Positions 169 through 56,366 of a DNA stretch of 64,000 bases are shown piece by piece (position 1 is the stretch's first letter; every line of letters starts with the position of its first letter). The notes under the pieces were generated by a model that had not been told where the DNA came from, ran no database searches, and was given only the letters and a program-made list of their open reading frames with translations. Position numbers and translations under genes: made by a program. This DNA is from Vitis vinifera (Eukaryota > Streptophyta > Magnoliopsida > Vitales > Vitaceae): contig NC_081815.1 in the NCBI RefSeq assembly GCF_030704535.1, forward strand, positions 19,180,001-19,244,000. The letters are read 5' to 3'.

Positions 169-735
169 TGGCGGATACGCTGTATGGTTGGTCAGAGGTG
201 TTTGAAGAGAAGAAGTTTGAATTTAGTGACTTGAAATTGATCTCTCAGAGCTCCAATTTATACTTGGTGGGAGAGATATAGTGAGATTGAGAGGGTACTG
301 CTGGGAAGGTTCAAAGTGGGAGAACAAAGAATGAGTTGTATACAGATGGCAGTGACAACCATATCTACAAATGGGCTTCCACCTCCCCCCTAATACTTTT
401 TAAATCATCAGAATCACACGGTTTTGCAATAGAAAAGTATTCAGGAAGTACCATAGTTTTTAACTTCTGCCGCGTCTACCTGTCTCCCCCCCACCTCCCC
501 CACCTCCCCCCAAAATTGCTTTTGTCCGTTTCCAATATATCAAACAGTTCAACAAAAAACAGCTCTCCAGTGTAAAAATGTGCTGGACCAGAGCTTCCTA
601 CATACATCACTCCACCCACTGTCTTTCTATGTCTAGAAATCCTAAATGCCAAAACAGGGAGAGAAAGATAAGTAGCACCTGCCCAAGCCATCATCATGCC
701 CAGTTGTAATAAAAAACAGCCCACCGTCTTTCGAA
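169..735 (-). promoter_or_regulatory. Promoter region of the MAPI-type XTH at the window edge
   Basis: A TATA box is visible as TTTATA at 257-262 (TATAAA on the minus strand). A conserved block at about 570-730, containing TGTGCTGGACCAGAGCTTCC, recurs upstream of every MAPI-type copy: near 6570 in the same orientation, and near 49.0, 49.85, 55.8 and 63.95 kb inverted. The conservation suggests a shared regulatory module, but no particular factor site can be named. Confidence 0.6.
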
Positions 736-1146
736 GTGCTTTTATTGGAAACGTTCTTTCTAAAAGTACTTTTTGGGAAAATCACATGAAAATGATTTTT
801 TAATTTTTTAAAAGTGATTTCTAAATTTTATCAAATATTTTATTTTTTTCAAAAATACTTTTAAATTAGAAATAATATTTAAAAATATTATCAAACATAC
901 ACTTTAAGTTTTGACACTACATCTTTTTTTTTTTTTTTAGAATATTGCTATCTTTTATAATTAACTACCATCTTTTATATTTTAGAGTATTAACTTTTTA
1001 TTATATCTATTGTTTTTAGATTTATAAGTCATTATGTACAAGTACTATATGATACAAATATAATATTTTTTATAAATTAATAAATATTTATTTATCAATA
1101 AATTAATAAATTATTCATTTATAAGTAAATCAACAATTTATTAAGA
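736..1146. other. AT-rich spacer mirrored at about 55.02-55.55 kb
   Basis: No gene is visible. The stretch from about 900 to 1140 is recognisably the reverse complement of the spacer at about 55.02-55.3 kb; for example ATTATTCATTTATAAGTAAA here corresponds to a near match there. This fixes the two arms as an inverted duplication that includes non-coding DNA. Confidence 0.6.
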
Positions 1147-1455
1147 TTATGTTTGGTTTTTGGAAAATACTAAGGAAAGAAAAAAAATGTAAAGGAAAAT
1201 AATTTTTTCATGTTTGATTGTCTTATAAAAAATATAAAAGAAAATCAAATATAATTAAAACTAATTAAAAACTTATATATTTTTAAATTATTTAATTTTT
1301 ATATTGATGAGTTAAAATAAATAAAATGAGTTTGAAGTAACAAAAAAATAATTTATCAACTTTTAATTTATTTTTTTATTTTTATTCACTTTTTCTTTCC
1401 TTTTACTTTTTCTTTGTATTTTCTTTCCCGTTTTCTTCAAATTTTATGGAACCAG
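1147..1455. mobile_element. MITE-like element, copy 1 of a 310-345 bp family
   Basis: An AT-rich non-coding repeat starts near TATGTTTGGTTTTTGG and ends near TTATGGAACCA, which are imperfect inverted termini. Its interior closely matches 43013-43331 and 60059-60402, including the shared core TTATATTGATGAGTTAAAAT. It carries no transposase. The mirrored spacer near 55.0 kb lacks it, so it probably inserted after the two arms were formed. Superfamily not assigned. Confidence 0.65.
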
Positions 1456-2148
1456 GTGATAATTTTTCTTGGTCTCAAGAATAGGGTTCTTATTGAAGTT
1501 TTAAAAAGCATACTACAAAATTCACAGGTGGCTTAGTATTCATGAATCATATCTCTTGTAATAGTAACTAATAATCAATCTATCTTTCATCAGAGAGTGA
1601 ATCAGACTCAAAAGCCAGTGAGGGAAATGATTGCTTTTATGGCCAATTAACTATAGGGATCATGGATTTGGGGGAGAAGGTTTCATTTAGGTTAATTTGA
1701 AACATTGGTGATTTTTGATTTGTTTGTTTGCCGCCTTCATCATGCATGGAGCATTTTGAATGATTCAGTGCATAGTTTTGGTGACTCTTAACTGAAGTTT
1801 CTTGCTGTTTGTGATTGAAGTGGAAAGAAATTAAGATTATTTACTCTTTAAATTTGGTGTAAGGCCCAATCCATATCTGTCAGAAGTTAAAGAACAAGCA
1901 GAAACAGAGAAAGGGCTAGAAGTTACATTGACAATGGTTCATCTCCTCAGTTATTTTCAACAATTTTCTTTTCTTTGTCATTCGTAAAGAATATTTTATT
2001 ATTTGTATTGTGCCATATATTACAATGTAAACAATATAATATTTCTGCTGTTGTAATAGCAACTAAAATGATAAAGAATGAAAGAATAGAAATGAAGAAA
2101 ATTTCAAAAGCAAACTATCTGATTGAATGGGCTTAGGTTCCATTCCTT
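1456..2148. other. 3' flank of the XTH at 2149, conserved among MASPS-type copies
   Basis: No coding gene is supported. The segment at about 1525-1950, read on the minus strand, matches the DNA downstream of the XTH genes at 46659 (about 47.9-48.8 kb), 53525 (54.75-54.99 kb) and 61704 (62.9-63.7 kb). A shared landmark is GCCGCCTTCATCATGCATGG. It probably includes the 3' untranslated region and was carried along with the duplicated units. Confidence 0.55.
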
Positions 2149-3242
2149 CTAAGACAAGGTGGTGGCAGTGCATTCAGGAGGAAGGCCTTGTGGGAATCGC
2201 TTTGTATCTGTGCAGTAATTGTAGATCATGTAATTCTTCTGTACCCATTTCATTCTCTCTTGGCTTGTGGAATCTAGCTCTTGTGAGTACCACTGACCAC
2301 TGGTGGAGGTAGAAGAGGGAGTAGTTGAACTGCAAGAAGATGCTCCAGAAGACCAAATGCAAGCATCTGCATTGAAGTTCCTATAGGAAGCAGTGAAGGG
2401 GGCTTGGCTCCAGTCTGTCTTGACCAGCCCACCTCTTGTTGCCCAGTCATCAGCATTCCAGAGGCTGGAGTATATCCTCATGGGCTGGTTCTTGGGATAT
2501 GAAACACCTATGGACTCAGAGTTCTTGAACTCTCTGATGGGGGTGCCGTCCACTGAGAAGCTGAAACAGAGATACCCCAGATGATTGAGCCAATTAAGAA
2601 ACCAAAAAAAAAAAAAAAACATAAACCAGATTTCACTATTGGGGATTAATTACTGTACTACTTACATAATCCGCTGGGGGTTCCAAAGGATGGAATAGGT
2701 GTGGAAATCAGCAGTTGGGTCAAACCAGAGGTAGAATTGCTGCTCTCTGTTGCCCTTGCCCTGGCTGAACACATTAGTGTGAAGAATGTATGGATCACCA
2801 CTGAGATTCCCCAAGAATTCGAAGTCTATCTCATCATGGGTTGGCCCTTGTGAAGATAGCTGCAATTACACAAACCAGAATGGTGATTTGTGAGTCAGGA
2901 GAAGATGAAACCAAGAAAGCATTTGATGGAAAAGCACTTGGTAAAGAGGAGGCTTACATAGTAGGCAGTGACAGTGCCAGCTGAGTTACCAGGCACAAGC
3001 TTCAGCTGCATATCAATCTTTCCAAACAGATACTCATTCTTGGACTGGAAGCCAGAGCCAGAGGTTTTGTCAAGGGAGAGAGTGAGAAGCTCTCCATTGT
3101 TGAGTATCTTGGCACGGCCATCACCCCAAGTGATTTCAAAATCCTGGTACAAGTTACCAACAGAAGCAACCACAAAGGAACCGAGCAGAAGAGAGACCAA
3201 GAACAACTTTGGTGAAAGATTCCAAGTAGAAGGAGAAGCCAT
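2149..3242 (-). CDS. XTH: Xyloglucan endotransglucosylase/hydrolase, MASPS type
   Basis: GH16 enzyme predicted to act in the cell wall, cutting xyloglucan and joining the new end to another xyloglucan chain (XET activity) or to water. Exons on the minus strand are 2958-3242, 2666-2859 and 2149-2560, with introns of 98 and 105 bp and GT-AG ends. They join in frame to 296 aa. Residues 1 to about 29 are a signal peptide (ends VVASVG before NLYQDF). The catalytic motif [10 protein letters not shown] is at 103-112, with nucleophile E105 and acid/base E109, followed at once by the N-glycosylation site NLS at 113-115. The C-terminal domain has the paired cysteines ([22 protein letters not shown]). 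Closest family: XTH22/23/25 (TCH4-like). Endotransglucosylase rather than hydrolase activity is inferred from the subgroup. TATA box is the complement of 3321-3326. Confidence 0.95.
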
Positions 3243-3560
3243 TGAATGTGAATTTAGAGACGAGAAATGGAAGTAGTTTTGAGCGTGGAAGTGAAGAGAA
3301 TGGCGTGGGTATGTGGGGGTTTTATAGTAGGTGTCGTGGGGGAAAGTGGAAGGAGATCGAGAAGAAGGTTCAGTCAGCAGCTGTACACGGTTGAAGATGT
3401 AAAGACAACAGTTGTCATCAAATAGCAAAACCCAGTTCATTTTCACGCGGATTTTGCATGGATTTAAAAGAGAAAAGTGCAGATCCACTTTCCCATTTCC
3501 CAAGCACCATTCATCGCTCATAACTAAAGCCACCACCGCCACTGAGTAAAAAACAAAAGC
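3243..3560 (-). promoter_or_regulatory. Conserved MASPS-type XTH promoter
   Basis: TATA box as TTTATA at 3321-3326 (TATAAAACCCCCACA on the minus strand). Further upstream are a CAGCTGCTGACTGAACCTTC-like block and a TTTGATGACAACTGTTGTCT block. The whole stretch matches 46341-46658 closely in inverted orientation, and 53290-53524 and 61440-61703 less closely. Confidence 0.65.
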
Positions 3561-4980
3561 GAATCAAACCCTTGAAACCGTGTCTCTCATTATTATTTTT
3601 CATCTCCAGTTGTATCCGAAAAAGAATCACCAAGCCCACAAATAAAGTCATAATAGTAGGAGCCAGTAACAGCCCAAAAGCTCTGTGCTTCGATGAAACC
3701 ACCATCTACTTGGTTTCCTGAAAAGAACTACTCACTGCCCTCTGCTCAACTAATTTTTAATTGTGATGGGTTGGCTTAGAGTTTAAATTTTAAAACTCAT
3801 GGATCAAGGGGTGGGCCATGTGCTTGAAGGCTTAAACCAACTGGTTACGATATTTCTTTTGGACAATGTTAGAATATCTTATACTAATGCGGTGTTTGTT
3901 TTTTTACTTAATTTTAAATAGAATCTTAATACTTAATAATGTTAAATATTAAATTATTTATTTTTATAGTATTTTATTTTTATTAAGTATTAAAAATTAA
4001 AAAAAAATCAATATATTATTTTTTTTATTTAAAAAAAACTACATATTTTTTATTTAGTAAAATGTTTATAATAAGTTATGAAAAAATAGAAAATCAAACA
4101 ACCTAAATTTTGAAAACAAATTACTTTTAGTAAAAAAAAAAAAAAAAAATACCACCTAAGTATCTTACTTCTTGAGCCATTATTTTGATGACGTTGACAT
4201 TGTTACAATTGCCAATAGCTTTTTATATGGTTCAAGTCAAACCAACAGGTCACAAATCAACACAATTTAAGCATTATTCAAAACTGTTTTAAGGATAGAT
4301 TTTCAAAACTCTTCTATAAAGAATAAAAATTTGTTTGAGAATTTAAAATATTTTTTTTATAACTTTCAATATTTTAAAAATAATTTATTTTTAATCATTA
4401 TTTATATTTGTATAATTATTTTTTAAAATAATTTTTGAAAAATAAGCCAAAACAATTGAAATAATTAAAAGATATTATTTGAAACCAATTTTTAGAAATA
4501 TAAAACTATCTTTTTTTAATATTTGGTTGTTAAACATGTTTTCCTCTTCTTTTTTTATTTTTATTTTTTTTTATCATGGAAACATAAAACCATTTTAAAA
4601 AGTAATTTCCAAATAATACCTAAATCTTGGGTGACAACATTATGTTTACTAATTTCGGTAGGGAAAGGAGGGCAGCTGTTGAAAAAGAGGTCATATTTTT
4701 TATTTTCCTTATTATTTTTCAAAACCAAATATAATGTAGAAACAATAGTATTGTGATTTCACTCTCTTCGTTACTTTGTGGGGTTCAACATTGAGGTTGA
4801 GATAATGATATACATGCCATTCATTGAGAAAGTAATCTTTGTTGTATTCATGTATTACATTGTCAACAATGTGGTGTTTCTGAAATTCTGATGGCAACAA
4901 AAACGATAAAGAATGAAAGAATATAATTTTGAAATTATAGAGGCAAACAACGAAGTGAATGGCCTTAGGTTCTGTTCCCT
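3561..4980. other. Intergenic, AT-rich
   Basis: About 1.4 kb between two minus-strand XTH genes. It holds poly-T/A tracts and low-complexity DNA, and I see no gene. The last 150 bases are the likely 3' untranslated region of the XTH at 4981. The corresponding spacer on the right arm (51.44-53.2 kb) is also AT-rich but poorly alignable by eye. Confidence 0.5.
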
Positions 4981-6072
4981 CTAGGACATGGTGGTGGCAG
5001 AGCATTCAGGAGGAAGGCCCTGTGGGAATCTCTTTGTGTCTGCGCAGTAATTGTAGATCATGTAATTCTTCTGCACCCATTTCATTCTCTCTTGGCTTGT
5101 GGAATCTAGCTCTTGTGAGTACCATCCCCCATTGGTGGAGGTAGAAGATGGAGAGGTTGAACTGCAAGAAGATGATCCAGAGGACCACAAACAAGCATTG
5201 GCATTGAAGTTCCTGTAGGAGGCTGTGAATGGTGCTTGGCTCCAGTCTGTCTTCACAAGCCCGCCTCTTGTTGCCCAGTCATCGGCATTCCAGAGACTGG
5301 AGTATATCCTCATGGGCTGGTTCTTCGGGTATGGGACACCTATGGATTCAGAGTTCTTGAACTCTCTGATGGGGGTGCCATCCACAGAGAAGCTGAAACA
5401 GAGATGCCCCAGATGAGCAAATCAATACGAAAACCCAAAAAACATAAACCAGATTGCAGTTTTGGAGATTAGGATAATAGTACTTACATAATGCGCTGGG
5501 GATTCCAGAGGATGGAATAGGTGTGGAAATCAGCAGTTGGGTCGAACCACAGGTAGAACTGCTGCTCTCTATTTCCCTTGCCTTGGCTGAACACATTAGT
5601 GTGGAGGATATAGGGGTCCCCACTGAGGTTCCCCAGGAATTCAAAGTCGATTTCATCATGGGTTGGCCCTTGTGAAGATAACTGCAATTACACACATACA
5701 TGAATGAGAACTACATACTAATCAGGAGAACATATCATCAAATGGAGGATGATGGGCAACAACTAATATGAATGGGGAACTTACATAGTAGGCTGTGACA
5801 GTGCCAGCAGAATTTCCAGGGACCAGTTTGAGCTGCATATCAATCTTGCCAAAGAGATACTCATTCTTGGACTGGAAACCAGATCCAGAGGGCTTGTCAA
5901 GGGAAAGAGTGAGAAGCTCTCCATTGTTGAGTATCTTACCACGTCCATCCCCCCAAGTGATATCAAAGTCTTGGTAGAAGTTACCTGCTGAGGCAGCCAT
6001 TAAGAAGCTCACCACTACAGACATTAGCAGGGCTGTTGAAACAGCTGAAGAAGAAGAACAGATGGGTGCCAT
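4981..6072 (-). CDS. XTH: Xyloglucan endotransglucosylase/hydrolase, MAPI type
   Basis: Exons on the minus strand are 5785-6072, 5488-5681 and 4981-5392; introns are 103 and 95 bp. The product is 297 aa: an [12 protein letters not shown] signal peptide ending near AASAG, a mature start [27 protein letters not shown] at 104-113 with catalytic E106 and E110, then NLS. Exon 2 encodes the same protein sequence as exon 2 of the gene at 2149 although roughly a tenth of its bases differ. Intron 1 is unrelated to intron 1 of the MASPS-type genes but similar to that of the gene at 50349. The small odd change is GRGKI where the paralogues have GRAKI. By order and flanks its mirror partner is the gene at 50349. 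TATA box is the complement of 6158-6163. Confidence 0.95.
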
Positions 6073-6840
6073 TGAGGGATATGCTGTATGGTTGGTAGGA
6101 GGTGTTTGAAGAGAAGTTTGATTTCAGTGAATTGAAATTGATCACTCTCAGCTCAGATTTATACTAATGGTGGAGAGAGAGGGGTTACTGCTGGGAAGGT
6201 TCAAAGTTGGAGAGCCAAAAAATGAGTTGTATACAGGTGGCAGTGGCAACCCCATCTGCAAATGGGCCTCCTTCATCAGTACTCATAATACAACCAAAAC
6301 TACCTTCCTTCTGATATTTTTGAAATCGTCACAATCACACGGTATCACAATAGAAAAGTAAGCAGCAAATATCATTGCTTTTAACCTCTGCCCTGTCCCC
6401 CAACCAGGTTTGGAATCCTTTCCAGTATATCTAAGTTGTTAACAGCTTAACAAAAGCTTGTCGTGATCAATTGGTGTTGATCATTACTTAATTCCAATCA
6501 TTTTCTTTTGACTGTAGTAAAGCTTTTGGCTTAAGATCCAGACCACAAAAGGGCATTTCAGTAACAATGTGCTGGACCACAGCTTCCCTCAGCCATTTGT
6601 CATAATGTGAAAGATCCTAAATGCCAACAGGGGAGAGAAAGACAAATAGCACCTCTCCAAGCCACCATCGCTGCCAGTTGGTAATTGCAAGCGCAACAAT
6701 CAGACAACAAACAAACACTGATAGCACAAGCCGAGTTACAGCCCGAAAAAGGCAGGTGATTCTCATGGCTTCAAATGCAGTTTACTTCTTATTATTTGCA
6801 CTGAATTAAGAGCAAGAAAAAAGAAAGAAAAATGCCAAAC
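6073..6840 (-). promoter_or_regulatory. Upstream region of the MAPI-type XTH at 4981
   Basis: TATA box at 6158-6163 (complement). The stretch at about 6550-6840, with GCACAAGCCGAGTTACAGCC and nearby landmarks, is the inverted counterpart of about 49565-49900, upstream of the gene at 50349. The inverted homology therefore reaches at least 6.8 kb on this side. Confidence 0.6.
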
Positions 6841-6990
6841 ATCACACAACAATGTATTCATTTCTGATATTTTATTATATATATATATATTGTCTATATA
6901 TATATATACATTGTAACACTGATTTTTGTGGAGTTTTTTAGTGGAAACTAAGATGAGGAACAAGGAAAGAATAAAACCATGGGTCGGCTT

Positions 6991-8044
6991 TTAAGTTACC
7001 ATGCATTCTGTAGGAAGGCCCTGGGAGAACCGCTCTGCATCAGTGCAGTAGTTGTAAATCATGTAGTTGTCCTCGACCCATTTCATCTTCTGCTGGTCTG
7101 TGGAATCAAGCACTTGTGAGAGCCATGGAGGAGAGTCCCAACTGCAAGAAGATGTTCCAGAATACAATATACAAGCATCAGCATTGAAGCTCCTATAGGA
7201 AGCCACGAAAGGAGCTTGGCTCCAGTTAGTTTTGACAAGGCCTCCTCTTGTTGCCCAGTCATCTGCATTCCATAAACTGGAGTATATCCGCATGGGCTGG
7301 CTCTTTGGGAAGAGAACACCAGCTGACTCCAAGTTCTTGAACTCCCTGATGGGGATGCCATCAACCCAGAAGCTGAAATGGACAGAAAACAAGCCAGTAC
7401 ATTGATTTAGATCGATTTGGATCATGCAAAAGGAAAGCGAAAATGCTGAAAGTATCCCGGTTTCTACTCACACCACGCATTGTGGATTCCAGAGGATGGA
7501 GTAGTTGTGGAAATCAGCAGTTGGGTCGAACCAGAGGTAGAATTGCTTCTCTCTTTTTCCCTGGCCTTGGATGTACACATTGGTGTGAAGAATGTAAGGA
7601 TCACCACTGAGGTTCCCCAAGAATTCAAAGTCTATTTCATCATGAGTCTCCCACTCTTTTGAAGACAACTGAAACCATCCACACATTCACACATAGAGAA
7701 CTAAATATCACGTCTAGCCTTCAAGAAATTAAAACTGGACACAAGGGAGGAGGGCTTACGTAATAGGCAGTTACAGTGCCAGCAGAGTTTCCAGGGACTA
7801 ACTTGATCTGCATAGCAATCTTCCCAAACAGATACTCATTCTTGGACTGAAAACCCGAGCCGGAGGCCTTGTCAAGAGAGAGAGTAAGAAGCTCCCCATT
7901 GTTGAGTATCTTAGCACGCCCATCCCCCCAAGTGATATCAAAGTCTTGGTAGAAGTTACCTGCTGAGGCAGCAGCCAAGAAGCTGATGATTAAAGACACT
8001 TGTAGGCCTGCTAAACCGCGTCTAAAAGAACAGAAAGCAGCCAT
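6991..8044 (-). CDS. XTH: Diverged xyloglucan endotransglucosylase/hydrolase
   Basis: Exons on the minus strand are 7760-8044, 7472-7668 and 6991-7372; introns are 91 and 99 bp. They join to 287 aa. Signal peptide at about 1-28 ([13 protein letters not shown] to AASAG). Exon 2 is one codon longer than in all other copies, reading [18 protein letters not shown]. Catalytic E106 and E110 and the following NLS are kept. The protein has [10 protein letters not shown] where most copies have [17 protein letters not shown] instead of DWSQAPF, and a shorter variable loop before the C-terminal cysteines. Exon 2 ends at a GTGAGT donor. It sits beside the left arm but has no visible mirror copy on the right, and it looks like an older, separate paralogue. 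Function as for the family; acceptor or substrate preference may differ. Confidence 0.93.
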
Positions 8045-9397
8045 TGAATCGATATTTGATTGAGCTCTATGAGCTAGAACTTATATAGAGGGTGAAGATA
8101 TACAAAGTTTTGGAAAAGAACAGTGATTCCATCATTCATGAGGATTGCTGATCATTCCATTTTGATGAACACAGGTTGTGGCAGTGCAGTCACGCATTGA
8201 ACTGCCTGATTTTCTGCTCAGTTACAGAATAAAACACCATTCACACACTTCTGCAGCATTGCTTCTTCCACCTTCCCATCAGTTACCAAGTTTTATAGGG
8301 CTGCTTTCTCAACAAATTTGATATGTATCAGGCAAGCATGCCTTCACAAAAATGCCATCCTCTTACTTTGTCAACCAAACAACAATGTGATGATCAGTTG
8401 CATTACACTAACCTACAAGAAAGAAATATATGCCCCATTTGGCAATGTTAATGTTTTTTCAAAACAGTTCTCAAGAGATTGTCTAGTCAACGGTTTTTAA
8501 AAACAGTTGTCATTATTTTCAAACTGTGCACTTCTATATTGGAACAGTACTTTAGTGAAGATATCTTGCTTTTATGTCCAATACAAAAGCCTTTAAAATA
8601 TTTTCCTCCACTGTTTCTTAAAACACACACAAAAAATAAAATAAAATCTCATTGTTCTTACTTTAAAGAGTAAAAAAATATTTGTAAAAACTGTTTTTCA
8701 ATAGACCTATATGAAGCCGGAAATTCAAGATTGCTAAAAGTGTAGTTTAGTATATCATATTGTTTATACCCCGATCACAGTTTGAAATAAGGTTGGGTAG
8801 ACCAAGGAAGGTGCTCATAGATTAGGCTGATTGTAAATCAGGATGCTCATAGATCAGACTGATTGTATTCACATTCTAATCACTTTTTTCATATCTTGGT
8901 TATCTTATTCACAGCTAATCACTTTCCTCGTGTCCTGCTTGTGTTTTTTCTACTTTAACCATATTCTTTTTTTATGCCTGTCTAAATTAATGAGATTGAT
9001 ACAGAAATGGTATGCAAAAGGTGTTTGCTTGATATGAAAGATGACCAACAAAAATTCCATATACAGCTAATATCATGAGTTTGCATGTAGAAACTTTGAA
9101 TATAAACAGAATGATAACTTTGGTTCTCTCTCTCTCAAATTCAATTCATTGCCTATGTTGTTGGCCTTCTGCTAGTCTTTAACCAAGACTCTCCTAACCT
9201 TTCAAGCCACAAGTTTTTCATTTGATTTTAGTTTTGGGATTGAGAATTTCTTTTTATAAAAAATTATAATTTCTTGTTATTCTTGGAATCCCCAATTTAA
9301 TCTTTTTGAAATCCCTATATTTTTTTTGCCTGCTATCCTCAAGTTCTGAATGATGTGTTTGTTTCCATAGAAACTATGATAGAAAAGTAATTGATAT
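8045..9397. other. Intergenic between XTH 6991 and the young copia element
   Basis: A TATATAAG-like box on the minus strand (near 8080-8087) probably serves the gene at 6991. Otherwise no gene or recognisable repeat. A short imperfect repeat of GCTCATAGATTAGGCTGATT occurs at about 8813-8866. Short open frames here show no family motifs. Confidence 0.4.
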
Positions 9398-9700
9398 TGT
9401 TGATATATGGCACAAGAACAGGGCAGAAATTTATGACAACAAAGGAAAAACTTGGTATCTGGAAGTATATTTTTATTCATTGCATTGCTCTTTATATAGA
9501 GCTGAAACATAACAGAAAGTCAAGAGAATTTGCTAATTTCTAGCCATGTCTAACCAATTCCTAATATCAAGCCAAAACAAAATATATATATATATATATA
9601 TATATCCAGAAAATATTCCTAAAGACTTGGTCTATTGACCAATTATTCAGCAACTTTTTGTTTGCCCATAACTGTAGCAACTAAAGGCACGTTTCCAACA
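9398..9700 (-). repeat. 3' LTR of the young copia element
   Basis: 303 bp, TG...CA ends, nearly identical to 13647-13941. It contains a (TA)n tract that is longer here than in the partner LTR. Confidence 0.95.
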
Positions 9701-12700: not shown

Positions 12701-13646
12701 AGCTTTTGCCTCTTCATGTTGTTGTGACTTGCAAATCCGCTCCATGTGTCCAATCTGACCACATTTCCTGCACTTGACATCAGGCCTCCACCAACACTTT
12801 CTTTGTGGGTGATTTGTCTTTTTGCAGTGTGGGCAAGGTGGATAAGTTCCATCCTTGTTTTTGTTGTTGTTGTCAGTCTTGTTATTCTTCTTCTTATTGT
12901 TGTTTTTCTTGTCTTTGCCTCATCCTGAATTTTCTGCCTTTGCTTGAAGCGCACCCTCCATCGATTCTTCTTTTCTTATCATTCTCCTTTGCTCTTGTGC
13001 CTGCAATGCATTCACCAATTCTGCCAAGGATATGCTTGACAAATCCTTAGATTCTTCTAATGAAGAAATTTTAGACTCATACTTTTCAGGCAGAGTTACA
13101 AGAATTTTTTGCACAATTCGTTCATCAGAGAAGTCCTTACCAAGCAACCTCACCTTGTTTACTATGCCCAGCAACTTGTCAGAGTAGTCTTTGATGTTTT
13201 CTGTCTCCTTCATTTTCAGCATTTCAAACTCCCTGATCAAGTTGAGTACTTTCATATTTTTGGTTCTTTCATTGCCTTGGTATTCCTTTTTGAGGTAGTC
13301 CCAAATATCTTTCGCTGACTCCAGGTTCATGATTCTTGTAAATATAGTGCTTGAAACAGTAGAGAATAAGTAGGCTTTAGCTTTGGACTTCCTGGTCTTC
13401 CTCTCTTTGTGGCTCTTAAGCTGAGCCATCGTAGGGTTCGCCGGCAATGGGGGAACATCATAGTCTTCCTCTATAGCTTCCCAAAGATCTAATGCTTCAA
13501 GATGGACTGTCATTCTAACAGCCCAGGCTTGATAGTTATCACCATCAAAAATTGGTGGTGCAACATGGGAGAAAGTTGTTTCAGTTTCCATTTCTGGATT
13601 CACTCAACTCACAGATCCCTCAAGAAGAAGAGCTCTGATACCAGAA

Positions 13647-13941
13647 TGTTGATATATGGCACAAGAACAGGGCAGAAATTTATGACAGCAAAGGAAAAAC
13701 TTGGTATCTGGAAGTATATTTTTATTCATTGCATTGCTCTTTATATAGAGCTGAAACATAACAGAAAGTCAAGAGAATTTGCTAATTTCTAGCCATGTCT
13801 AACCAATTCCTAATATCAAGCCAAAACAAAATATATATATATATATCCAGAAAATATTCCTAAAGACTTGGTCTATTGACCAATTATTCAGCAACTTTTT
13901 GTTTGCCCATAACTGTAGCAACTAAAGGCACGTTTCCAACA
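13647..13941 (-). repeat. 5' LTR of the young copia element
   Basis: 295 bp, TG...CA ends. The length difference from the partner LTR lies in the (TA)n tract; outside it I find a single base difference. Confidence 0.95.
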
Positions 13942-16880: not shown

Positions 16881-17086
16881 GTTGAGTTCTCTTAATGGAA
16901 ACTTAATCAGCTTAATTAGACTAAGGGGTTCGGGCAACTAGACCGGAAAGTCTCGCTGATTTGACATCATTAATGACCGAACAGTTGAGTTCTCTTAATG
17001 GAAACTTAATCAGCTTAATTAGACTAAGGGGTTCGGGCAATCAGACCGGAAAGTCTCGCTGATTTGACATCATTAATGACCGAACC
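16881..17086. repeat. Two tandem copies of a 103-bp unit
   Basis: Copies at 16881-16983 and 16984-17086 both read GTTGAGTTCTCTTAATGGAA, then through GGGGTTCGGGCAA and GACCGGAAAGTCTCGCTGA to ATTAATGACCGAAC. They are almost identical, so the duplication is recent. The unit is less AT-rich than its surroundings and I do not recognise it. Confidence 0.85.
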
Positions 17087-43930: not shown

Positions 43931-44219
43931 AAACCAATTGAAGTACATTATCAAAAATAATTTATTTTAAGAACAATTCTCCGAAAATGTAGTTTGAAAA
44001 CAATTAATAACCAAACATATTTTCCTTTTCTTTTTCTCAAAAATAAAAATTGTTCTTGAGAACAATTGCCCAATATAGTCTTAGGTTTGATAGCTTTTAG
44101 TTTAAAAAGTGTTTCTAAAAAAAAAAAATTAACTATTTAAAAAAATTTAGAAAATACTTTTAAAAACTTAAAAAATCATTTTTACGGTTGGAAAATTACT
44201 TATAATTTCTAAAGAAATA

Positions 44220-46107: not shown

Positions 46108-46153
<46 letters not shown>

Positions 46154-46340
46154 TTTTTAAATTCTCAAATCCATTTTGGATCAAAAATTTTAAGTGAAAA
46201 ACTAATGTCGGTTGAAAATTTTTGGAAGACCTAAAATTCCTAATAACTGATATCTCGGGAATAGAATATCAAAGAAGCGTCTGAGAAGTAGATGAAAAAA
46301 ACATTTGTGAGCAACGCGGTTTCAAGGAGTTTGATTCGCT
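44459..46340. other. Intergenic, AT-rich
   Basis: No gene is supported. A moderately GC-richer patch at about 44.6-44.75 kb (GGGTTGGGCTTTGCTCGGGG) has no recognisable homology. A (TA)n run lies at 46111-46145. Phrases ending in CAAACACACTCTTA-like termini suggest further decayed copies of the small element family. Confidence 0.4.
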
Positions 46341-46658
46341 TTTGTTTTGTCACTCAATGGGGGTGGTGGCTTTAGGTATGGGCAATGAATGGTGTTTGGG
46401 AAATGGGAAAGTGGGTCTACACTTTTCTCTTTCAAATTCGTGCAAAATCCGCTTGAAAATGAACTGGGTTTTGCTATTTGATGACCCCTCTTCTTTACTT
46501 ACATTAGGAGTCCATCTGTATACAGCTGCTGACTGAAGCTTCCTCATCTCCTTCCAATTCCCCCAGAACTTCTACTATAAAACCCCACATACCCACGCTA
46601 TTCTCTTCACTTCCATACTCGAGCTGTTTTTCATTTCTCATCTCTATATTCGCATTCA
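46341..46658 (+). promoter_or_regulatory. Conserved MASPS-type XTH promoter
   Basis: TATA box at 46576-46581, 78 bases before the start codon, in CTACTATAAAACCCCACATA. Upstream, GAACTGGGTTTTGCTATTTG is shared exactly with the inverted promoter of the gene at 2149, and CAGCTGCTGACTGAAGCTTC is shared with all MASPS-type copies. Confidence 0.7.
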
Positions 46659-47743
46659 ATGGCTTCTCCTTCTACTTCAAATCTTTCACCAAAGTTGCTC
46701 TTGCTCTCTCTTCTGTTTGGTTCCTTTGTGGTTGCTTCTGTTGGTAACTTGTACCAAGATTTGGATATCACTTGGGGTGATGGCAGAGCCAAGATCCTCG
46801 ACAATGGACAGCTTCTTACTCTCTCCCTTGACAAAGCCTCTGGCTCTGGCTTCCAGTCCCAGGATGAATATCTGTTTGGGAAGATTGATATGCAGCTGAA
46901 GCTTGTGCCTGGTAACTCTGCTGGCACAGTCACTGCCTACTATGTAAAGCCTCCTCTTTACCAAGCGTTTTTCCATTAAATGCTTTCTTGGTTTCATCTT
47001 CTTCTGACTCACAAATCAATATCCTGATTTCTGTAATTGCAGCTATCTTCACAAGGGCCTACCCATGATGAGATAGATTTTGAATTCTTGGGGAATCTCA
47101 GTGGGGATCCATACATTCTTCACACTAATGTGTTCAGCCAAGGCAAGGGAAACAGAGAGCAGCAGTTCTACCTCTGGTTCGACCCTACTGCCGATTTCCA
47201 CACATATTCTGTTCTCTGGAATCCTCAGCGCATTATGTAAGTATTATTATCCTGATCTCCAAAACTGCAATCTGGTTTATGTTTTTTGGGTTTTGGCATT
47301 GATTTGCTCATCCGGGGTATCTCTGTTTCAGCTTCTCTGTGGATGGCACCCCCATCAGAGAGTTCAAGAACTCAGAGTCCATAGGTGTTCCATACCCCAA
47401 GAACCAGCCCATGAGGATATACTCCAGTCTCTGGAATGCTGATGACTGGGCAACAAGAGGTGGGCTGGTGAAGACAGACTGGAGCCTAGCCCCCTTCACA
47501 GCCTCCTACAGGAACTTCAATGCCAATGCATGTGTTTGGTCCTCTGGATCATCTTCTTGCAGTTCAAACTCTCCATCTTCTACCTCCACCAATGGTGGAT
47601 GGTACTCACAGGAGCTTGATTCCACAAGCCAAGAGAGAATGAAATGGGTGCAGAAGAACTACATGATCTACAATTACTGCACAGACACAAAGCGATTCCC
47701 ACAAGGCCTTCCTCTTGAATGCACTGCCACTACCACGTCCTAG
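46659..47743 (+). CDS. XTH: Xyloglucan endotransglucosylase/hydrolase, MASPS type
   Basis: Exons 46659-46943, 47043-47236 and 47332-47743; introns of 99 and 95 bp. They join to 296 aa. Signal peptide at about 1-29 ([20 protein letters not shown] to VASVG). Active site [10 protein letters not shown] at 103-112, catalytic E105 and E109, NLS following. Distinctive changes are [15 protein letters not shown] and [10 protein letters not shown], where sister genes have DFDIT, KILNNG and [10 protein letters not shown]. First plus-strand member of the right array. Its promoter is the closest match to that of the gene at 2149, and its 3' flank matches the 3' flank of the gene at 61704 for more than 1 kb. 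Confidence 0.95.
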
Positions 47744-48830
47744 AAAGAACCGAATCTAAGTCCATTCAATCAATTCTATTCTTTCATTCTTTATCATTAT
47801 AGTTGCTGTTACAGCAGCAGAAACATCATACTGTTTACATTGTAATATATGAGCCAATTCGGATAATAAAAGATTCTTTATGAATGACATGCACTGTTCT
47901 TCGAGCCTCAATTTGGATGTCAGAAACCACTAGAGAAAGAAAAGGGCATTGTCGAAAATAACTGAAGAGATTAACCATTGTCAATATAATTTTTAGCTTT
48001 TTTTCAATTTGTTTTCCCTGTTCTTTAACTTATGAGACACAGATGGGGCCTCGAACCAAATTTAAGGAGTAAATAATTTTGATTTCCTTCCTTTAAATTG
48101 CAAACAGCAAGAAAGTACAGTTAAAACCACAAACCAAGCACTGAGTCACATAAAAGCTCCAAGCATGATGAAGGGGGCAAACAGACACGTGAAAAATCAC
48201 CAATCCATGAACCCAAAAACAGTCCCATGCCCTATGAGTTATCTATTGTTATTTTCTGTCCTGCCTCCTTTGCTTGTGGAAGTCAGCAAGCCTCTTTATG
48301 GTGCTGGTGATATGTAGATTGGGTGTGGACTCATCTTAACATTGTAAATGTGTTTTAAAGTTGGGAATGATCTTTAGCCTCAGAAAGAACAAATATCTAT
48401 TCATTGGGATTGGATTGTTATAAATGATATTAAAATCGATCTCTAACCCCTCACGTGAGAATTTGTATAGTCCCGCAAAAGATGTACGTCTATTTTGCCC
48501 CACAATTCTATGAAACACAACAACGACGTTATGTCTATATGAGGGGTGGATAATTGTGATATCTTATATCGGATGAGGAGGAAATTTTTCTGGAGCTATA
48601 TAAATGTATTAACTCCTCTTAATCTTATAAAAACATTTTAAAGCTGTCAGGATCTTTTGAGTCTAGAGCGGACAATATCGTTTAACATACGAGTCTGATC
48701 CTCTTCTTATGACAGATAAATTGATTATTAGTTACTTCTATTACAATAGATAATACATGAATACTAAGCCACCTCTGATTTTTGTTTTATGTTTTTGTTT
48801 AAAGTTTCTCCCCTGTTCACATTAGGTAAG
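47744..48830. other. 3' flank of XTH 46659
   Basis: Contains the presumed 3' untranslated region and polyadenylation area (AATAAAAGATTCTTTATGAA near 47864). Closely parallel to 62788-63780 downstream of the gene at 61704 and, inverted, to about 1.5-2.1 kb. No gene is visible; the frame open at 63124-63384 in the sister flank is interrupted here. Confidence 0.55.
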
Positions 48831-50348
48831 CTCTACTGTATGTGAGTAGGTAACTGGATCTTACTATGGGTGTTGAACAGGCAGTGATGGAGTCTTGGGC
48901 AGGTGCTGCTTGTCTTTCTCTTGTTGTTTTGACATTTAGGATCTTTATACTTGGAAAAAGTGGATGACAGTGGGTGGAGTTATCTATATAGGAAGCTCTT
49001 GTCTAGCACATTTTTACACTAACACGCTCTTTTAAAGTTTGGTTCTGGTAAAAAGAAATGACTTCAATCAATTAATCAGCATCCACCAATCATGACATAT
49101 TCTTATTGAGATGATATTACAGAGAAGTGAATACATTGTAATGTGGTGTCTGGTGAAGATGCTCTAATTTTTCAAATAATTCAGTGAGTAGGAAGAGAAT
49201 GATCATTCTTTGAATATAACACTTTATTAAACATATGCAGCAAAAGATGCAAGAGAGAGGACTTAGATTTTGTTAGCACAAGGGACTTCAAAGGAGGAGA
49301 ACTTGCGTTCTCTTTGGTCGGAAGAAGCTATTTATAGAGTTTTTCCTTGGGTTTCTAATGAAATTTCTTACTTATTCAGATCTCTTTCATTTTAGTAGGA
49401 TTGGCAACTTTATAAACCTTGGAACTATGATCTTTGACTATTCTTGTTCTTGCAGTAGTTTTTTTTCTCTGATATATGTTTTTGTAGTCAAGCCATCATG
49501 TTGGTGATTTTACTGGCCTCCAGAAAAAATGAATACTTTGAGATGCCCAAAGTGGGGATTGTTAAATCTTCTGCACCTCCATCTGGCATTTTTGTTTTTT
49601 TTTCTGTACTCTTAATTCAGTGCAAATAATAAGAAATAAACTGCATATGAGAATCACCTGCCTTTTTCGGGCTGTAACTCGGCTTGTGCTATCAGTGTTT
49701 ATTTGTTGTCTGATTGATGCACTTGCAGCTACCAACTGGCAGTGATGATGGCTTGGGCAGGTGCTATTTGTCTTTCTCTCCCCTGTTTTTTGGCATTTAG
49801 GATCCTTCACACTAGGAAAAATGTCTAGGGAAGCTGTAGTCCAGCACATTTTTACACTGAAATGCCCTTTTGTGGTCTGGAACTTAAGCCACAAGCTTTA
49901 CTACAGTAAAAAGAAAATGATTGGAATCAAGTAATGATCAAACCAATTGATCAGGACAACTTTTTGTTAAGCTGTTAACAACTTTGATATGCTGAAAAGG
50001 ATTCCAAACCTGGTTGGGGGACGCGGCAGAAGTTAAAAGCAATGATATTTGCTCAGTACTTTTCCATTGGAATACCGTGTGATTGTGATGATTTTAAAAA
50101 TATCAGGAGGAAGTCGGTTGTGGTTGTATTGTGAGTACTGATGAAGGAGGCCCGTTTGCAAATGGGTTACCACTGCCACCTGTATACAACTCATTTTTTG
50201 GCTCTCCAACTTTGAACCTTCCCAGAATTAACACACCCCTCTCTCTCCTCCCTTAGTATAAATGTCGGCTGAGAAATCAATTTCAATTCACTGAAATCAA
50301 ACATCTTCTCTTCAAACACCTCTTACCAACCATACAGCACATCCCTCA
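48831..50348 (+). promoter_or_regulatory. MAPI-type promoter region with an internally duplicated block
   Basis: TATA box at 50257-50262 (TAGTATAAATGTC), 87 bases before the XTH start at 50349. Two related blocks lie upstream: about 48880-49080 and about 49735-49950. Both run from a GGCAGTGATG...CTTGGGCAGGTGCT stretch through TTTAGGATC to CCAGCACATTTTTACACT or a one-base variant. The downstream block is the normal MAPI promoter module. The upstream block is a second copy, so either this promoter was duplicated or a gene between the blocks was lost. Confidence 0.6.
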
Positions 50349-51443
50349 ATGGCACCCATCTATTCTTCTTCTTCAGCTGTTTCTACGGCCCTGCTAATCT
50401 CTGTAGTGGTAAGCTTCTTAATGGCTGCCTCAGCAGGTAACTTCTACCAAGACTTTGGCATCACTTGGGGGGATGGGCGTGCTAAGATACTCGACAATGG
50501 AGAGTTTCTCACTCTTTCCCTTGACAAGACCTCTGGATCTGGTTTCCAGTCCAAGAATGAGTATTTGTTTGGGAAGATTGACATGCAGCTCAAACTTGTT
50601 CCTGGAAACTCTGCTGGCACCGTCACTGCCTACTATGTAAGCCCGCCTTTCATATTACTTGTTGCACATCATCCTCCATTTGATGATCATTTGTTCTCCA
50701 GATTAATATGTAGTTCTCATTCATGTATGTGTGGATTTGCAGTTATCTTCACAAGGGCCAACCCATGATGAAATCGACTTTGAATTCCTGGGGAACCTCA
50801 GTGGGGATCCATATATCCTTCACACTAATGTGTTCAGCCAAGGCAAGGGAAATAGAGAGCAGCAGTTCTACCTGTGGTTTGACCCAACTGCCGATTTTCA
50901 CACCTATTCCATTCTCTGGAATCCCCAGCGCATTATGTAAGTACTATTATCCAAATCTTCAAAACTGCAATCTGGTTTATGTTTTTTGCGTTTTCATATT
51001 GATTTACTCGTCTGGGGTATCTCTGTTTCAGCTTCTCTGTGGATGGCACCCCCATCAGAGAGTTCAAGAACTCTGAGTCAATTGGTGTTCCATACCTAAA
51101 GAATCAGCCCATGAGAATATACTCCAGTCTATGGAATGCTGATGACTGGGCAACAAGAGGTGGGCTCATCAAGACAGACTGGACCCAAGCCCCCTTCACT
51201 GCTTCCTATAGGAACTTCAATGCAGATGCCTGCATTTGGTCTTCTGGAGCATCTTCTTGCAGTTCAAATACCCCCACTTCTATCTCCCCCAGTACTGACT
51301 GGTACTCACAAGAGCTAGATTCCACAAGCCAAGAGAGAATGAAATGGGTGCAGAAGAATTACATGATCTACAATTACTGCACTGACACAAAGCGATTCCC
51401 ACAAGGCCTTCCTCCTGAATGCACTGCAACCACCACATCCTAG
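50349..51443 (+). CDS. XTH: Xyloglucan endotransglucosylase/hydrolase, MAPI type
   Basis: Exons 50349-50636, 50743-50936 and 51032-51443; introns of 106 and 95 bp. They join to 297 aa. Signal peptide [12 protein letters not shown] to AASAG, mature start [33 protein letters not shown] at 104-113 with E106 and E110 and NLS. Exon 2 encodes the same protein as exon 2 of the genes at 2149, 4981 and 53525. Differences from sisters in exon 3 include [22 protein letters not shown] and a loop [14 protein letters not shown]. Mirror partner of the gene at 4981 by order, promoter and intron 1 similarity. A stray exon 1 piece lies less than 300 bases downstream. Confidence 0.95.
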
Positions 51444-51706
51444 AAGGAAACTCAACATTAAGGCCATTCAGTTGATGCTTTCTTTGTTGGCTTGTATCAT
51501 TTTTGTAACTCTATTCTTTCATTTTTTTTTTTTATCATTTAATTGTCATCAAAACAACAGAAGCCTCACATTGTTTACAGTATAATATATGAGGATTTCT
51601 GAGTAACTTTTATCATCACTTATTGCTTCAAAGTTCAAATGAAATAGGGTGGGAGATTTGAAACTCAATCTAATGATCATCAGTGCGGTAGAAAAGTGTT
51701 CTCGTC

Positions 51707-51842
51707 CGTGCCAATCTCTGTAATGGTTAGCTTCATAATGGCTGCCTCTGCAGGTAACTTCTACCAAGCTTTGACATCACTTGGGGAGATAGGCTTGCCA
51801 ATATACTCATCAATGGGGAGCTTCTTACTCTTCCCTAGACTT
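51707..51842 (+). pseudogene. XTH exon 1 fragment
   Basis: Reads like the middle of an MAPI-type exon 1: ATCTCTGTAATGGTTAGCTT, then ATGGCTGCCTCTGCAGGTAA, CTTCTACCAAG and a TTGACATCACTTGGGGAGAT stretch. The signal-peptide start and the rest of the exon are missing. A base is missing after CTTCTACCAAGC relative to sisters, so the frame shifts, and the LSLDK part is lost. Exons 2 and 3 are absent. A remnant of a lost tandem copy. Confidence 0.85.
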
Positions 51843-51849
51843 CATGAAA

Positions 51850-53200
51850 ATTTCAGCATTCTTTAACAAAGAAGTCTTGTAATCTAATCATATTGAGAAG
51901 TGACAGTGACACGATTCAATTCGCAGTGGCGTTTGTTATTTTAACTTAGGTAAGCAAGTCGTTTTAAAATTTAAGATAAAAGTTAAAAAAAATAAAATAC
52001 TTTTTTCTTTCAAATAAAGTTGTTTTAAAAAATAATAATAATTCAAAAAAACCAAACCGTTTTAAAAATACTAAACCCTCTAAACATTTTTTTTAAGACT
52101 TAATTTTTAGTATCCTAATTTTAAAAAAAAAAAAAATTGGTTTTAAATATATAAGGTAAATTTATTCTTTTATACAAAATGTTCTTTTTATATAGAATTT
52201 ATTTTTATTTTTTTTAAAAAAAAAAGGTGTATCCAAACAAATATTAAAAGTATAATAATTTTAAAAACTATTTAAAATTTTGAGTTACTACCTCAAATTT
52301 AAAACAAAAAAATTAAAGTGATTCTTAGTATATTGTAATCAATACTTTTTATATAAGATGTTTTACTTCTATATAGAAATCAAAAAGTGAAATCCAAATG
52401 ATGATTGGTATATGTTTAGATAGTTTTTTTTTATAAGATAAAAATAATTATTATTATTTTGTACAAAAAAAAAAAAAAAGATTTATATTGTATCTTTAAA
52501 GTCACTTCAAAAGTTTTAAAATTTGAGATGGTAAAAAAAAAATTATAACTCAATTTTTTTTAAATATTTTTAAAATCATTATATTTTCAATAAAAATATC
52601 TAAAAATTATGGCATTTTATATAAATATTACTATTATTTTTTATTCAAAAATATAAAATAAGAAATGTATTAGATAGACACTAGTATTAAATATTATTTA
52701 GACTTAAATTAAACTACAATCTATTAAATCCACTGTAATCATTATTGAAAAGTAACTTAATTACATTTGGAATTAACTTCATCGTATCCGTAGGTCCATC
52801 GTATAATTTGGTCATTATTGGAAAGTAATATACTCATGTATGAAAGTAAGTTGATCATATTTAGGAGATGAATTGGTTATCCATATGAATTTAATTATTA
52901 AAACTGAAGATATCATACCTCTACCACCCTACAATGCACAATGTAGACAAAGGTCCATCAATATTACACATTAAGCCCCAAAGCCCAATATAGAAATGAG
53001 TCAAATGACAGATAGATACTTCAAAACTTGAACCAAAAAGTGTGAAGTAGTTATTTTCAACACTAGAGATACATTTCCAAAAATCATAAGTTTATCTCAA
53101 TGACAAACATAGTTTTCAAGTAAATTAAAGAAATTAACTTTCACAAGCTTAAGAATACAATTAAATCAACTAGGTGGGGGTGGTTGGTTCAAACTTCAGG
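51850..53200. other. Intergenic, AT-rich
   Basis: No gene is seen. Long A/T tracts (for example near 52120 and 52465). It separates the MAPI-type gene at 50349 from the MASPS-type gene at 53525. Confidence 0.5.
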
Positions 53201-53524
53201 GACGGTGGTGGCTCTAGGTATGGATAATAATTGGTGTTTTGGTAGAAGGGAAAGTGGTTTGGCCCTTCTGTTTCTTTTTTCAAGTGCATGCATAGACCGT
53301 GTCAAAATGAAAGTGGGTTGCGCTTGTGCCATCAGATGACAGCTATTGCCTTCACATATTGAGCTCAACTGTGAACAGCTGCTGACTCATCCTTCCTTCT
53401 CTCCTTCCAGGCTTCCGCTTTTCCCCCTCACCATCTATACTATAAAACCCCACGTACCCACACCGTTCTCCTCACTTCCACACTCCAAACTTCTCCCCAT
53501 TTCCCATCCCTATATTCACATTCA
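53201..53524 (+). promoter_or_regulatory. Conserved MASPS-type XTH promoter
   Basis: TATA box at 53441-53446 (CTATACTATAAAACCCCACG), 84 bases before the start. The upstream blocks GTCAAAATGAAAGTGGG and CAGCTGCTGACT are shared with 61440-61703. Confidence 0.65.
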
Positions 53525-54608
53525 ATGGCTTCTCCCTCTACTTCGAATCTGTCACCAAAGTTGCTCTTGATGTCTCTTCTGCTTGGTTCCTTTGTGGTTG
53601 CTTCTGTTGGTAACTTGTACCAAGATTTTGATCTCACTTGGGGTGATGGCAGAGCCAAGATCCTCAACAATGGACAGCTTCTTACTCTCTCCCTTGACAA
53701 AGCCTCTGGCTCTGGCTTCCAGTCCAAGAATGAGTATCTGTTTGGGAAGATTGATATGCAGCTGAAGCTTGTGCCTGGAAACTCTGCTGGCACTGTCACT
53801 GCCTACTATGTAAGCCTCCTCTTTACCAAGTGTTTTTGCATCAAATGCTTTCTTGGTTTTATCTTCTTCTGACTCACAAACCAATACCTGCTTTGTGTAA
53901 TTGCAGCTATCTTCACAAGGGCCTACCCATGATGAGATAGATTTTGAATTCTTGGGGAATCTCAGTGGTGATCCATACATTCTTCACACTAATGTGTTCA
54001 GCCAAGGAAAGGGAAACAGAGAACAGCAGTTCTACCTCTGGTTTGACCCCACTGCTGATTTCCACACCTATTCCATCCTCTGGAATCCCCAGCGGATTAT
54101 GTAAGCACTATAGTAATTAATCTTCAAAATTGCAATCTGGTTTACGTTTTTCGGGTTTTTGTATTGATTTACTCATCTGGGGTATCTCTGTTTCAGCTTC
54201 TCTGTGGATGGCACCCCCATTAGAGAGTTCAAGAACTCTGAGTCCATTGGTGTTCCATTCCCAAAGAACCAGCCCATGAGGATATACTCCAGTCTCTGGA
54301 ATGCAGATGACTGGGCAACAAGAGGTGGTCTTGTGAAGACAGACTGGAGCCAAGCACCTTTCACAGCCTCCTACAGGAACTTCAATGCCAATGCTTGTGT
54401 TTGGTCCTCTGGATCATCTTCTTGCAGTTCAACCTCTCCATCTTCTACATCCACCAATAGTGGATGGTACTCACAAGAACTAGATTCCACAAGCCAAGAG
54501 AGAATGAAATGGGTGCAGAAGAACTACATGATCTACAATTACTGCACAGACACAAAGAGATTCCCACAGGGCCTTTCCCCTGAATGCACTGCCACCACCA
54601 CATCCTAG
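53525..54608 (+). CDS. XTH: Xyloglucan endotransglucosylase/hydrolase, MASPS type
   Basis: Exons 53525-53809, 53907-54100 and 54197-54608; introns of 97 and 96 bp. They join to 296 aa. Signal peptide at about 1-29, mature start [30 protein letters not shown] at 103-112 with E105 and E109 and NLS. Exon 3 has PFPKNQPMR, a TSTNSGW loop and GLSPEC where most sisters have GLPPEC. By gene order and flanking spacer it is the mirror partner of the gene at 2149, although the promoter of that gene is closer to the one at 46341. No defect visible. Confidence 0.95.
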
Positions 54609-55590
54609 AGGAAACTCAACCTTAAAGGCCATTCAGTTAGATAGTTTGCCTCTGTAGGTTTCCTCAGTTCTGTTCTTTCATTCTTTATCATTTTAGTCGG
54701 TATCACCACAGCTCATTGTTTACATTGAAATATATGAGATGAATAAAAAATCCTTTTAGCCCTTTTTCTGTTTCTTCTCCTTGTTCTTTAACTTCTGACA
54801 GATACAGATTGGGCCTTATACCAAATTTAAAGAGTAAATAATCTTAATTTCTTTCCACTTTAATCACAAACAGCAAGAAACTTCAGTTAAGAGTCACCAA
54901 AACTATGTACTGAGTCACACAAGAAGCTCCATGCATGATGAAGGCGGCACACAGACAAATGTAAAATCGCCCCCAAATCCATGAACCCTATAAAATAATA
55001 TTTTTCAAACTAAGAGAAATTATTACCTTAATGGCATGGTTGATTTATTCATAAATGAATAATTTATTAATTTATTGATAAATAAATAATTATCAATTAA
55101 TAAAGAATATTATATTCGTATTATATAGTTCTTGTACATATGACTTATTAATCTAAAAATAATAGATATAATAAAAAGTTAATATATAGAAACTTAAGAA
55201 ACCTGAAAAAATAAAAAATGGTTATTAATTATAAAAGATAGCGGGACTCTGAAAAGAAAAAAATGTAGTATCAAAACTTAAAAATTTATTTGATAATAAT
55301 TTTAAGTAACACATTTAATTTTAAAAGCATTTTTTTTAAAAAAAGAAATAAAAAAGACATTTCACAAGATTTGGAAAACACTTTTAAAAATTAATAAAAA
55401 AAGGTTTTCAACAAAAACACTTTTGAAGAGAAACAATGTCAAATTCACTTTTAATTGCTAAAACATAAATATTATTCATAAATTTTTTTAAACTCTTATA
55501 TATTTCTAAAATAATATTATTATCTTTTATATTTAATAAAGTTATTAATTTAGTACACAGCTCGAGGCGTTATCGAGCCTTTACCGTGTC
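54609..55590. other. 3' flank and AT-rich spacer, mirror of about 0.9-2.1 kb
   Basis: 54.75-54.99 kb matches the 3' flanks of the other MASPS-type genes. 55.02-55.55 kb is the inverted counterpart of about 0.8-1.14 kb. The MITE present at 1147-1455 on the left arm is missing here. No gene is seen. Confidence 0.55.
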
Positions 55591-56297
55591 TCCGATGTTC
55601 ACATTGGGTAAGCTCTTCGATATGTTGTTGGCTGGCAAGGAGATGAGCAGGTGACTGGATCTTGCCAGTGGTGTTCAACTTGCAATTACAAATTTACAAC
55701 TGGCCATGATGATGGCTTGGGCAGGTGCTACTTATCTTTCTCACCCTGTTTTGGCATTTAGGATCTTTAGACTTGGAAAAAAGTGGATGACAGTGGGTGG
55801 TGGAGTGATGTATGTAGGAAGCTCTGGTCCAGCACATTTTTACACTAGAGCCCTCTTTTGAGGTTTGGTTCTGGTAAAAGGAAAATGATTTGAATCAAGT
55901 AACCATCATCATCAACTAATCATGACAAGTTTTTTTTTTTGAACTGTTTGATATATTGGAAAGGGACAAAACCAGGTTGGGGAAGCAGGTAGACGAGGCA
56001 GAAGTAAGATCTATGATACTTCCTGAGTAGTTTTATATTGCAAAACCGTGTGGTTCTGATGATTTAAAAAGTATTAGTTGGGAGGAGGAAGCCCATTTGT
56101 AGATATGGTTGCCACTGCCATCTGTATACAACTTATTCTTTGGTCTCCCACTTTGAACCTTCCTGCAGCACCCTCTCAAGCTCACTAGATCTCTCCCACC
56201 AAGTATAAATTGGAGTTGGAAGAGATCAATTTCAAGTCACTAACATCAAACTTCTTCTCTTCAAACACCTCTTAGCAACTATATAGCATATCCCTCA
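55591..56297 (+). promoter_or_regulatory. MAPI-type promoter in front of a truncated XTH
   Basis: Carries the full MAPI-type module (CCAGCACATTTTTACACTAG near 55832) and a TATA-like CAAGTATAAATTGG near 56198-56211. It is the inverted match of 169-735. The gene it should drive is reduced to the fragment at 56298. Confidence 0.65.
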
Positions 56298-56366
56298 ATG
56301 GCACCCATCTATTCCTCTTGTTCAACTGTGACAACAACCCTGCTCATCTCTGTATCTCTACATTGA
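56298..56366 (+). pseudogene. Truncated XTH: start codon and signal peptide only
   Basis: Begins MAPIYSSCSTVTTTLLISV like other MAPI-type genes. Homology stops at about 56355, and the frame ends three codons later at TGA (56364-56366). No exon 1 remainder, exon 2 or exon 3 follows. This is a breakpoint of deletion or insertion, in the mirror position of the gene at 1-168. The retained promoter may still be transcribed. Confidence 0.85.

Follow-up and report, generated by a model that had tools for sequence, protein, structure and literature searches.

An eroded inverted block repeat in the grapevine XTH gene cluster on chromosome 11

We examined a 64,000-nucleotide stretch of the Vitis vinifera genome (NC_081815.1, positions 19,180,001 to 19,244,000; C11 19180001-19244000 among our contigs), hereafter the window, which holds part of a cluster of XTH genes. 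The window was analyzed together with 80 kb of left and 120 kb of right flank (a 264-kb region), and the window numbering is carried into the flanks, with values below 1 on the left and above 64000 on the right. By tblastn with XTH exon pieces, we located 15 XTH copies with matches to all three exons over about 76 kb, some of them damaged: seven minus-strand copies, G1 to G7, from about -923 to 40054, and eight plus-strand copies, G8 to G15, from 46659 to 75451, with fragments on both sides. The array has a single strand switch, between 40.1 and 46.6 kb, and extends beyond both window ends. We found that several units on the left recur on the right, reversed in both order and orientation. The inverted block repeat is genuine, though eroded; it lies in an XTH cluster that is already known and is a case of ordinary plant gene-cluster growth.

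The occurrence of similar paralogues within 100 kb fits a tandemly arrayed XTH (GH16) cluster, and the one open reading frame scanned for domains (4981-5421) carries XET_C (PF06955) and GH16 (PF00722) domains. When the genome (21 contigs, 495.6 Mb) was searched with PF06955 (XET_C), 17 of the 40 matches fell in this cluster, with four on C5 and three on C10. The genes are expected to act as ordinary XTH enzymes.

Gene models were built by enumerating GT..AG introns, with odd exon ends in several copies (G3, G4, G5, G10, and G12). Start positions were taken from these models, except for G10 (exon matches) and for G14 and G15, which have no gene model; the first exon of G14 is split between frames. 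Segment bounds (exons e1, e2, and e3; introns i1 and i2) were set from the G1 model.

The copies in the two arms fall into a MAPI type and a MASPS type by first codons and promoter. The MAPI promoters divide further into type a (G3, G9, and G12) and type b (G1, G15, and the remnant Rem56); promoters of different MAPI types are 23.7-25.1% apart and those of the same type 5.7-13.9%. Exact occurrences of the start ATGGCACCCATCT lie at 168 and 6072 on the minus strand and at 50349 and 56298 on the plus strand; the mean number expected, allowing up to one mismatch, was 0.04.

Six collinear inverse blocks connect left 112-6837 with right 56354-49584 (Table 1), at 78-90% identity (weighted mean, 86.1%). 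They cover 4687 of the 6726 left bases, including 2444 of the 4483 non-genic bases of the left arm, and the similarity is thus not confined to exons. The initial annotation had described inverted arms of three genes each and had named two non-coding landmarks. The inverse collinearity stood, as did the upstream-DNA landmark (left, about 6.55-6.84 kb) in local alignment and the AT-spacer landmark, the latter by BLAST only. However, the third right-hand gene, at 56298, is a promoter with 57 coding bases, whose homology to G1 and to the 74.4-kb copy stops at 56354, and the arms are part of a larger array. Continuous inverse identity over both arms, which the annotation had proposed as support, is absent: the alignment is interrupted over 1.3-1.6 kb, and the right-hand side carries a second block. 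In a one-piece global alignment, identity was high across genes, promoters, and 3' flanks, but was a chance-like 44-60% across 4947-3509 versus 51487-53232 and 44-57% across 1546-803, where BLAST still matched 787-1137.

The right array is itself a direct repeat, in which block A (46.4-59.7 kb) recurs as block B (61.4-77.2 kb). The gene-bearing matches are 46392-49452/61429-64388 (85.1%), 49601-51309/64425-66140 (93.7%), 53180-54757/68272-69867 (95.0%), and 55586-56354/73629-74414 (85.3%); fragments match at 58352-58525/76039-76213 (90.3%), 58676-59046/76225-76599 (90.1%), and 59412-59747/76862-77199 (81.6%). Block B also matches the left arm inversely, with 5115-6819 (G3) corresponding to 66140-64425 at 89.1%, and G1 with its promoter matching 75679-73971 (G15) at 89.9% over 1.7 kb; of the right-hand copies inside the window, none matches G1 as well. 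Because the right block recurs beyond the window and G1 matches G15 best, the picture of two arms is partly an effect of the window end.

In the left flank, -3166 to -1513 repeats 5595-7316 in direct orientation (83.2%) and crosses the junction between the G3 promoter and the G4 3' end (6837); the part derived from G4 shares 92.9% identity with G4 itself. The left block therefore began tandem duplication as well.

Across the two sides, promoters are paired according to position: the distances were 8.8% (G3-G9), 9.6% (G3-G12), 13.4% (G1-Rem56), and 13.9% (G1-G15), as compared with the 23.7-25.1% between types a and b, and those within the right side were 5.7% (G9-G12) and 11.5% (Rem56-G15). A longer alignment gave 9.1, 10.8, 11.7, 12.3, 6.7, and 11.6%, respectively. 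In the promoter tree, G9 and G12 were joined with support of 95, and G15 and Rem56 with only 75. The joining of G9 and G12 indicates that the split from the left MAPI-a gene preceded the duplication on the right.

We regard as the probable history a duplication, in inverted orientation, of a small block of XTH genes, followed by direct duplication, exon exchange, and erosion. A block of MAPI-a, MASPS, and MAPI-b would have been placed in opposite orientation on either side of the divergent XTH copies and the DXS region, the inverted copy arising as a single block. For the steps thereafter, we infer that the right block was duplicated directly, probably by unequal crossing-over, that right copies swapped 3' exons and one MAPI-b gene was reduced to its promoter, and that spacers were rewritten by repeats and deletions. 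This reading is favored by the inverse collinearity, which extends into non-genic DNA, by the near contact of the MASPS 3' flank and MAPI-b upstream homologies, by the positional pairing of promoters, by the direct repetition of block A as block B, and by the mutual rejection of the 5' and 3' trees. An array built once in one orientation from repeated MAPI-a/MASPS/MAPI-b modules, the right half of which was later flipped by a plain inversion, would need no inverted duplication. The right array read backwards does give the left module order, and the change from all-minus to all-plus copies occurs only once; nevertheless, this history requires a separate inversion, for which the sequence examined contains no breakpoint evidence, and we consider it unlikely.

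Several results weigh against a single inverted block. Gene order alone is weak evidence, since the run MAPI-a, MASPS, MAPI-b occurs in 6 of the 60 arrangements of the five labelled units of block A (hand calculation). The G3-G2 spacer (3546-4847) is not recognizably related to its positional partner (51593-53195): the score of 54 compares with 37.7 ± 4.8 in 30 shuffles (largest, 47), and in a control two unrelated pairs scored 32 (z -0.1) and 49 (z 6.0). The G2-G1 spacer is homologous to the G10-Rem56 spacer (score 359; shuffles, 34.7 ± 4.6), but it also matches the G14-G15 (540), G8-G9 (332), and G13-G14 (150) spacers, and its top run in block B (540) is confined to the MASPS 3' flank; since the 3' flanks of MASPS genes are alike, this spacer is not a private link between the arms. 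The G2 promoter is nearest to that of G8 (14.9%); the other four MASPS promoters are 24.2-24.8% away, among them that of its supposed counterpart G10 (24.3%). For MAPI-b, the G1-Rem56 and G15-Rem56 distances are about equal in the longer alignment, and no order of splits can be read from them. The left-flank copy at -3166 to -1513 was also tried as a guide to the ancestral side, but the promoter tree was a near-trifurcation, in which the three topologies had p values of 0.45-0.53 in the approximately unbiased (AU) test, and no side was favored.

Some of these points would suit a history in which single XTH genes with promoters and flanks were copied rightward one by one, the order of the three units being a coincidence with a chance near 10%. 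The unrelated G3-G2 spacer agrees with this, the spacer similarity could come from two gene units plus their flanks, and the best partner of G2 changes along its length: G8 for the promoter, G14 for the body (e2, 4.6%; i2, 8.2%; e3, 4.7%), and G10 for the distal 3' flank (90.4% identity). However, only 64 bp separate the homology of the MASPS 3' flank from that of the MAPI-b upstream DNA on the right; on the left the distance is 569 bp, 291 bp of it contributed by a repeat insertion. Among the matches listed, moreover, right block A is the sole partner of block 787-1137. Both observations fit two units moving together. Gene-by-gene copying is, in our view, quite unlikely.

The copies have exchanged exons with one another. 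For 11 copies (G12, with a truncated 3' exon, was omitted from the trees, the synonymous divergence (Ks), and the permutation tests, and G4, G6, and G7 from all segment comparisons), the 5' (e1+i1) and 3' (e2 to e3) trees rejected each other with AU p values below 1e-50 each way, and the 3' tree grouped G2 with G14 with support of 100. The compared MAPI and MASPS copies are about 45-54% different in intron 1 but only about 6-24% different in intron 2, and this contrast suggests that an exchange ended near exon 2. Part of the basis of the 5' tree is poorly aligned, namely intron 1, where the two types match at about 50%. The conflict between the trees can be accounted for by shuffling among the right-hand copies after the two sides had split, although an earlier exchange across the sides may have contributed. 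As the 5' and 3' halves differ in history, trees or dates derived from the full coding sequence can be misleading in this cluster. The e1 Ks values of positional partners were 0.15-0.22, which, at a substitution rate of 6.5e-9 per site per year, correspond roughly to 12-17 million years. VvXTH duplications have been dated to 2.91-78.39 million years ago (PMC9202548).

The initial annotation had also pointed to pairing, with inversion or conversion, as a possible effect of large inverted repeats, and this was not supported here. In favor of the arms as an active recombination substrate, converting or inverting the enclosed 43 kb, are their inverse homology, with exact runs of up to 107 bp (-4000..8100 versus 46000..77300; 81 bp within the arms), the union of G2 and G14 in the 3' tree, and four left-right pairs with permutation p values, uncorrected, of 0.003-0.02 (e1: G2-G15, 0.0060; e2-i2-e3: G1-G13, 0.0030, G1-G10, 0.0040, and G3-G11, 0.0185). 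On the other hand, the lowest left-right Ks values, which belong to G1-G15 in both segments, were 0.152 in e1, with its roughly 70 silent sites, and 0.178 in e2+e3, as compared with right-right minima of 0.014 in e1 (G11-G13) and 0.113 in e2+e3 (G10-G13). In the permutation test of shared runs (10 copies, G5 also being omitted), none of the 21 left-right pairs reached p ≤ 0.001 in e1 or e2-i2-e3 (lowest, 0.0030), and one of the 21 right-right pairs did (G10-G15, e1), the sole such pair among 45 in either segment; within-type tests of the whole body gave none of 6 and none of 15 pairs at this level. The arms share only short blocks, and long near-identical arms are not present. Recent conversion between the arms thus found no support in the Ks by segment or the permutation test, and we consider active recombination extremely unlikely. 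Very unlikely, too, is a history in which the opposed blocks repeatedly exchanged 3' exons across orientations (G2/G14, G3/right MASPS) and the DXS interval is inverted in some Vitis haplotypes. An assembly artefact seems unlikely, because the non-coding parts of positional partners differ by 9-15% and also in length.

Unequal crossing-over between direct repeats does not by itself change orientation, and the present array, with its one orientation change, differs in this from plain arrays of that origin. It is like the tandem arrays grown by unequal crossing-over that are treated in PMC7565063 in its clustered paralogues, block repeats, and damaged members. Very probably, this is the cluster described as VvXTH17-VvXTH30 for chromosome 11 of grapevine (PMC9202548), equated with it by chromosome counts and not by gene names or coordinates one to one: 15 of the 34 VvXTH genes are reported on Chr.11, four on Chr.5, and three on Chr.10, which resembles our genome-wide PF06955 counts. 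Our counts, which are of exon matches with fragments included, differ in having three matches each on C1 and C7 (two and one in that paper), matches on C14 and C19, and none on C16. VvXTH growth is reported there as tandem duplication only, with no segmental duplication, and the word "inverted" does not occur in the main text; here, in contrast, the non-genic DNA shows blocks repeated in inverse as well as direct orientation. None of the titles and abstract beginnings covered by our literature search reports an inverted block for this cluster. PMC11642401 reports a chromosome 11 signal at 3.1 Mb, away from this cluster, and PMC3072343 concerns poplar XTHs. The detail of inverse and direct blocks is new, and the kind of system is already known. 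It refines the account of growth in the largest XTH cluster of grapevine, adding block repeats in both orientations and exon exchange to gene-by-gene tandem copying.

Table 1. Features of the two arms and their surroundings, with inverse matches between left and right
Feature	Position	Strand	Inverse match (identity)	Remark
G1 (MAPI-b), first codons and promoter	112..709	-	56354-55694 (84.6-86.7%)	ATG 168; gene continues left of window to about -923
Spacer G2-G1	787..1922	-		contains repeat insertion 1164-1454
G2 (MASPS) and flanks	2014..3545	-	54736-53196 (84.9%)	gene model 296 aa
Spacer G3-G2	3546..4847			score 54 versus right spacer
G3 (MAPI-a) and 765 bp upstream DNA	4848..6837	-	51592-49584 (88.4%)	inner homology end 6837
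G4, more divergent XTH copy	6994-8044	-		G4 to G7 enclosed, outside arms; tblastn exons and gene models
G5, as G4	15297-16344	-		
G6, as G4	17882-18953	-		
G7, as G4	38846-40054	-		
G8 (MASPS) and downstream spacer	46290..49452	+		first unit of right block A
G9 (MAPI-a) and upstream DNA	49584..51592	+	G3 (88.4%)	
G10 (MASPS) and 3' flank	53196..54971	+	G2 (84.9%; flank 90.4%)	
Rem56: spacer, promoter, and first 57 coding bases of lost MAPI-b gene	55036..56354	+		ATG 56298
Gutted XTH fragment (upstream pieces and 3' exon)	58352..59747	+		closes right block A
G11, start of right block B	61422..64000	+		block B continues to 77.2 kb with G12-G15 and fragment
Inverse block	112-559		56354-55932 (84.6%)	
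Inverse block	556-709		55859-55694 (86.7%)	
Inverse block	787-1137		55410-55036 (78.0%)	
Inverse block	1707-1922		54971-54753 (90.4%)	
Inverse block	2014-3545		54736-53196 (84.9%)	
Inverse block	4848-6837		51592-49584 (88.4%)	

The insertion in the G2-G1 spacer is an AT-rich dispersed repeat with 14 matches in the 264-kb region, itself included (90.3% to 60097-60394), which we take to be like a miniature inverted-repeat transposable element (MITE). It is absent from the matching right spacer (54972-55035). Just 3' of G9, 51706-51840 is a MAPI-type first-exon fragment, inversely 86.9% identical to -8..128, and is perhaps a scar of unequal exchange. Beyond 56354, XTH-like DNA resumes with the gutted fragment at about 58.4-59.7 kb, which weakly resembles upstream and first-exon DNA at 58.7-59.05 kb and has an exon match from 59372.

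Between the arms lie G4 to G7, the plus-strand G8, a transketolase-type frame (29158-29856) that fits DXS, a name taken from the initial annotation, and two Copia-like elements. The element at 9398-13941, with direct end repeats 97.0% identical, is apparently younger than that at 32629-37605 (90.6%). At 16881-17085, a 103-bp unit is present in two repeats, with 98% matches.

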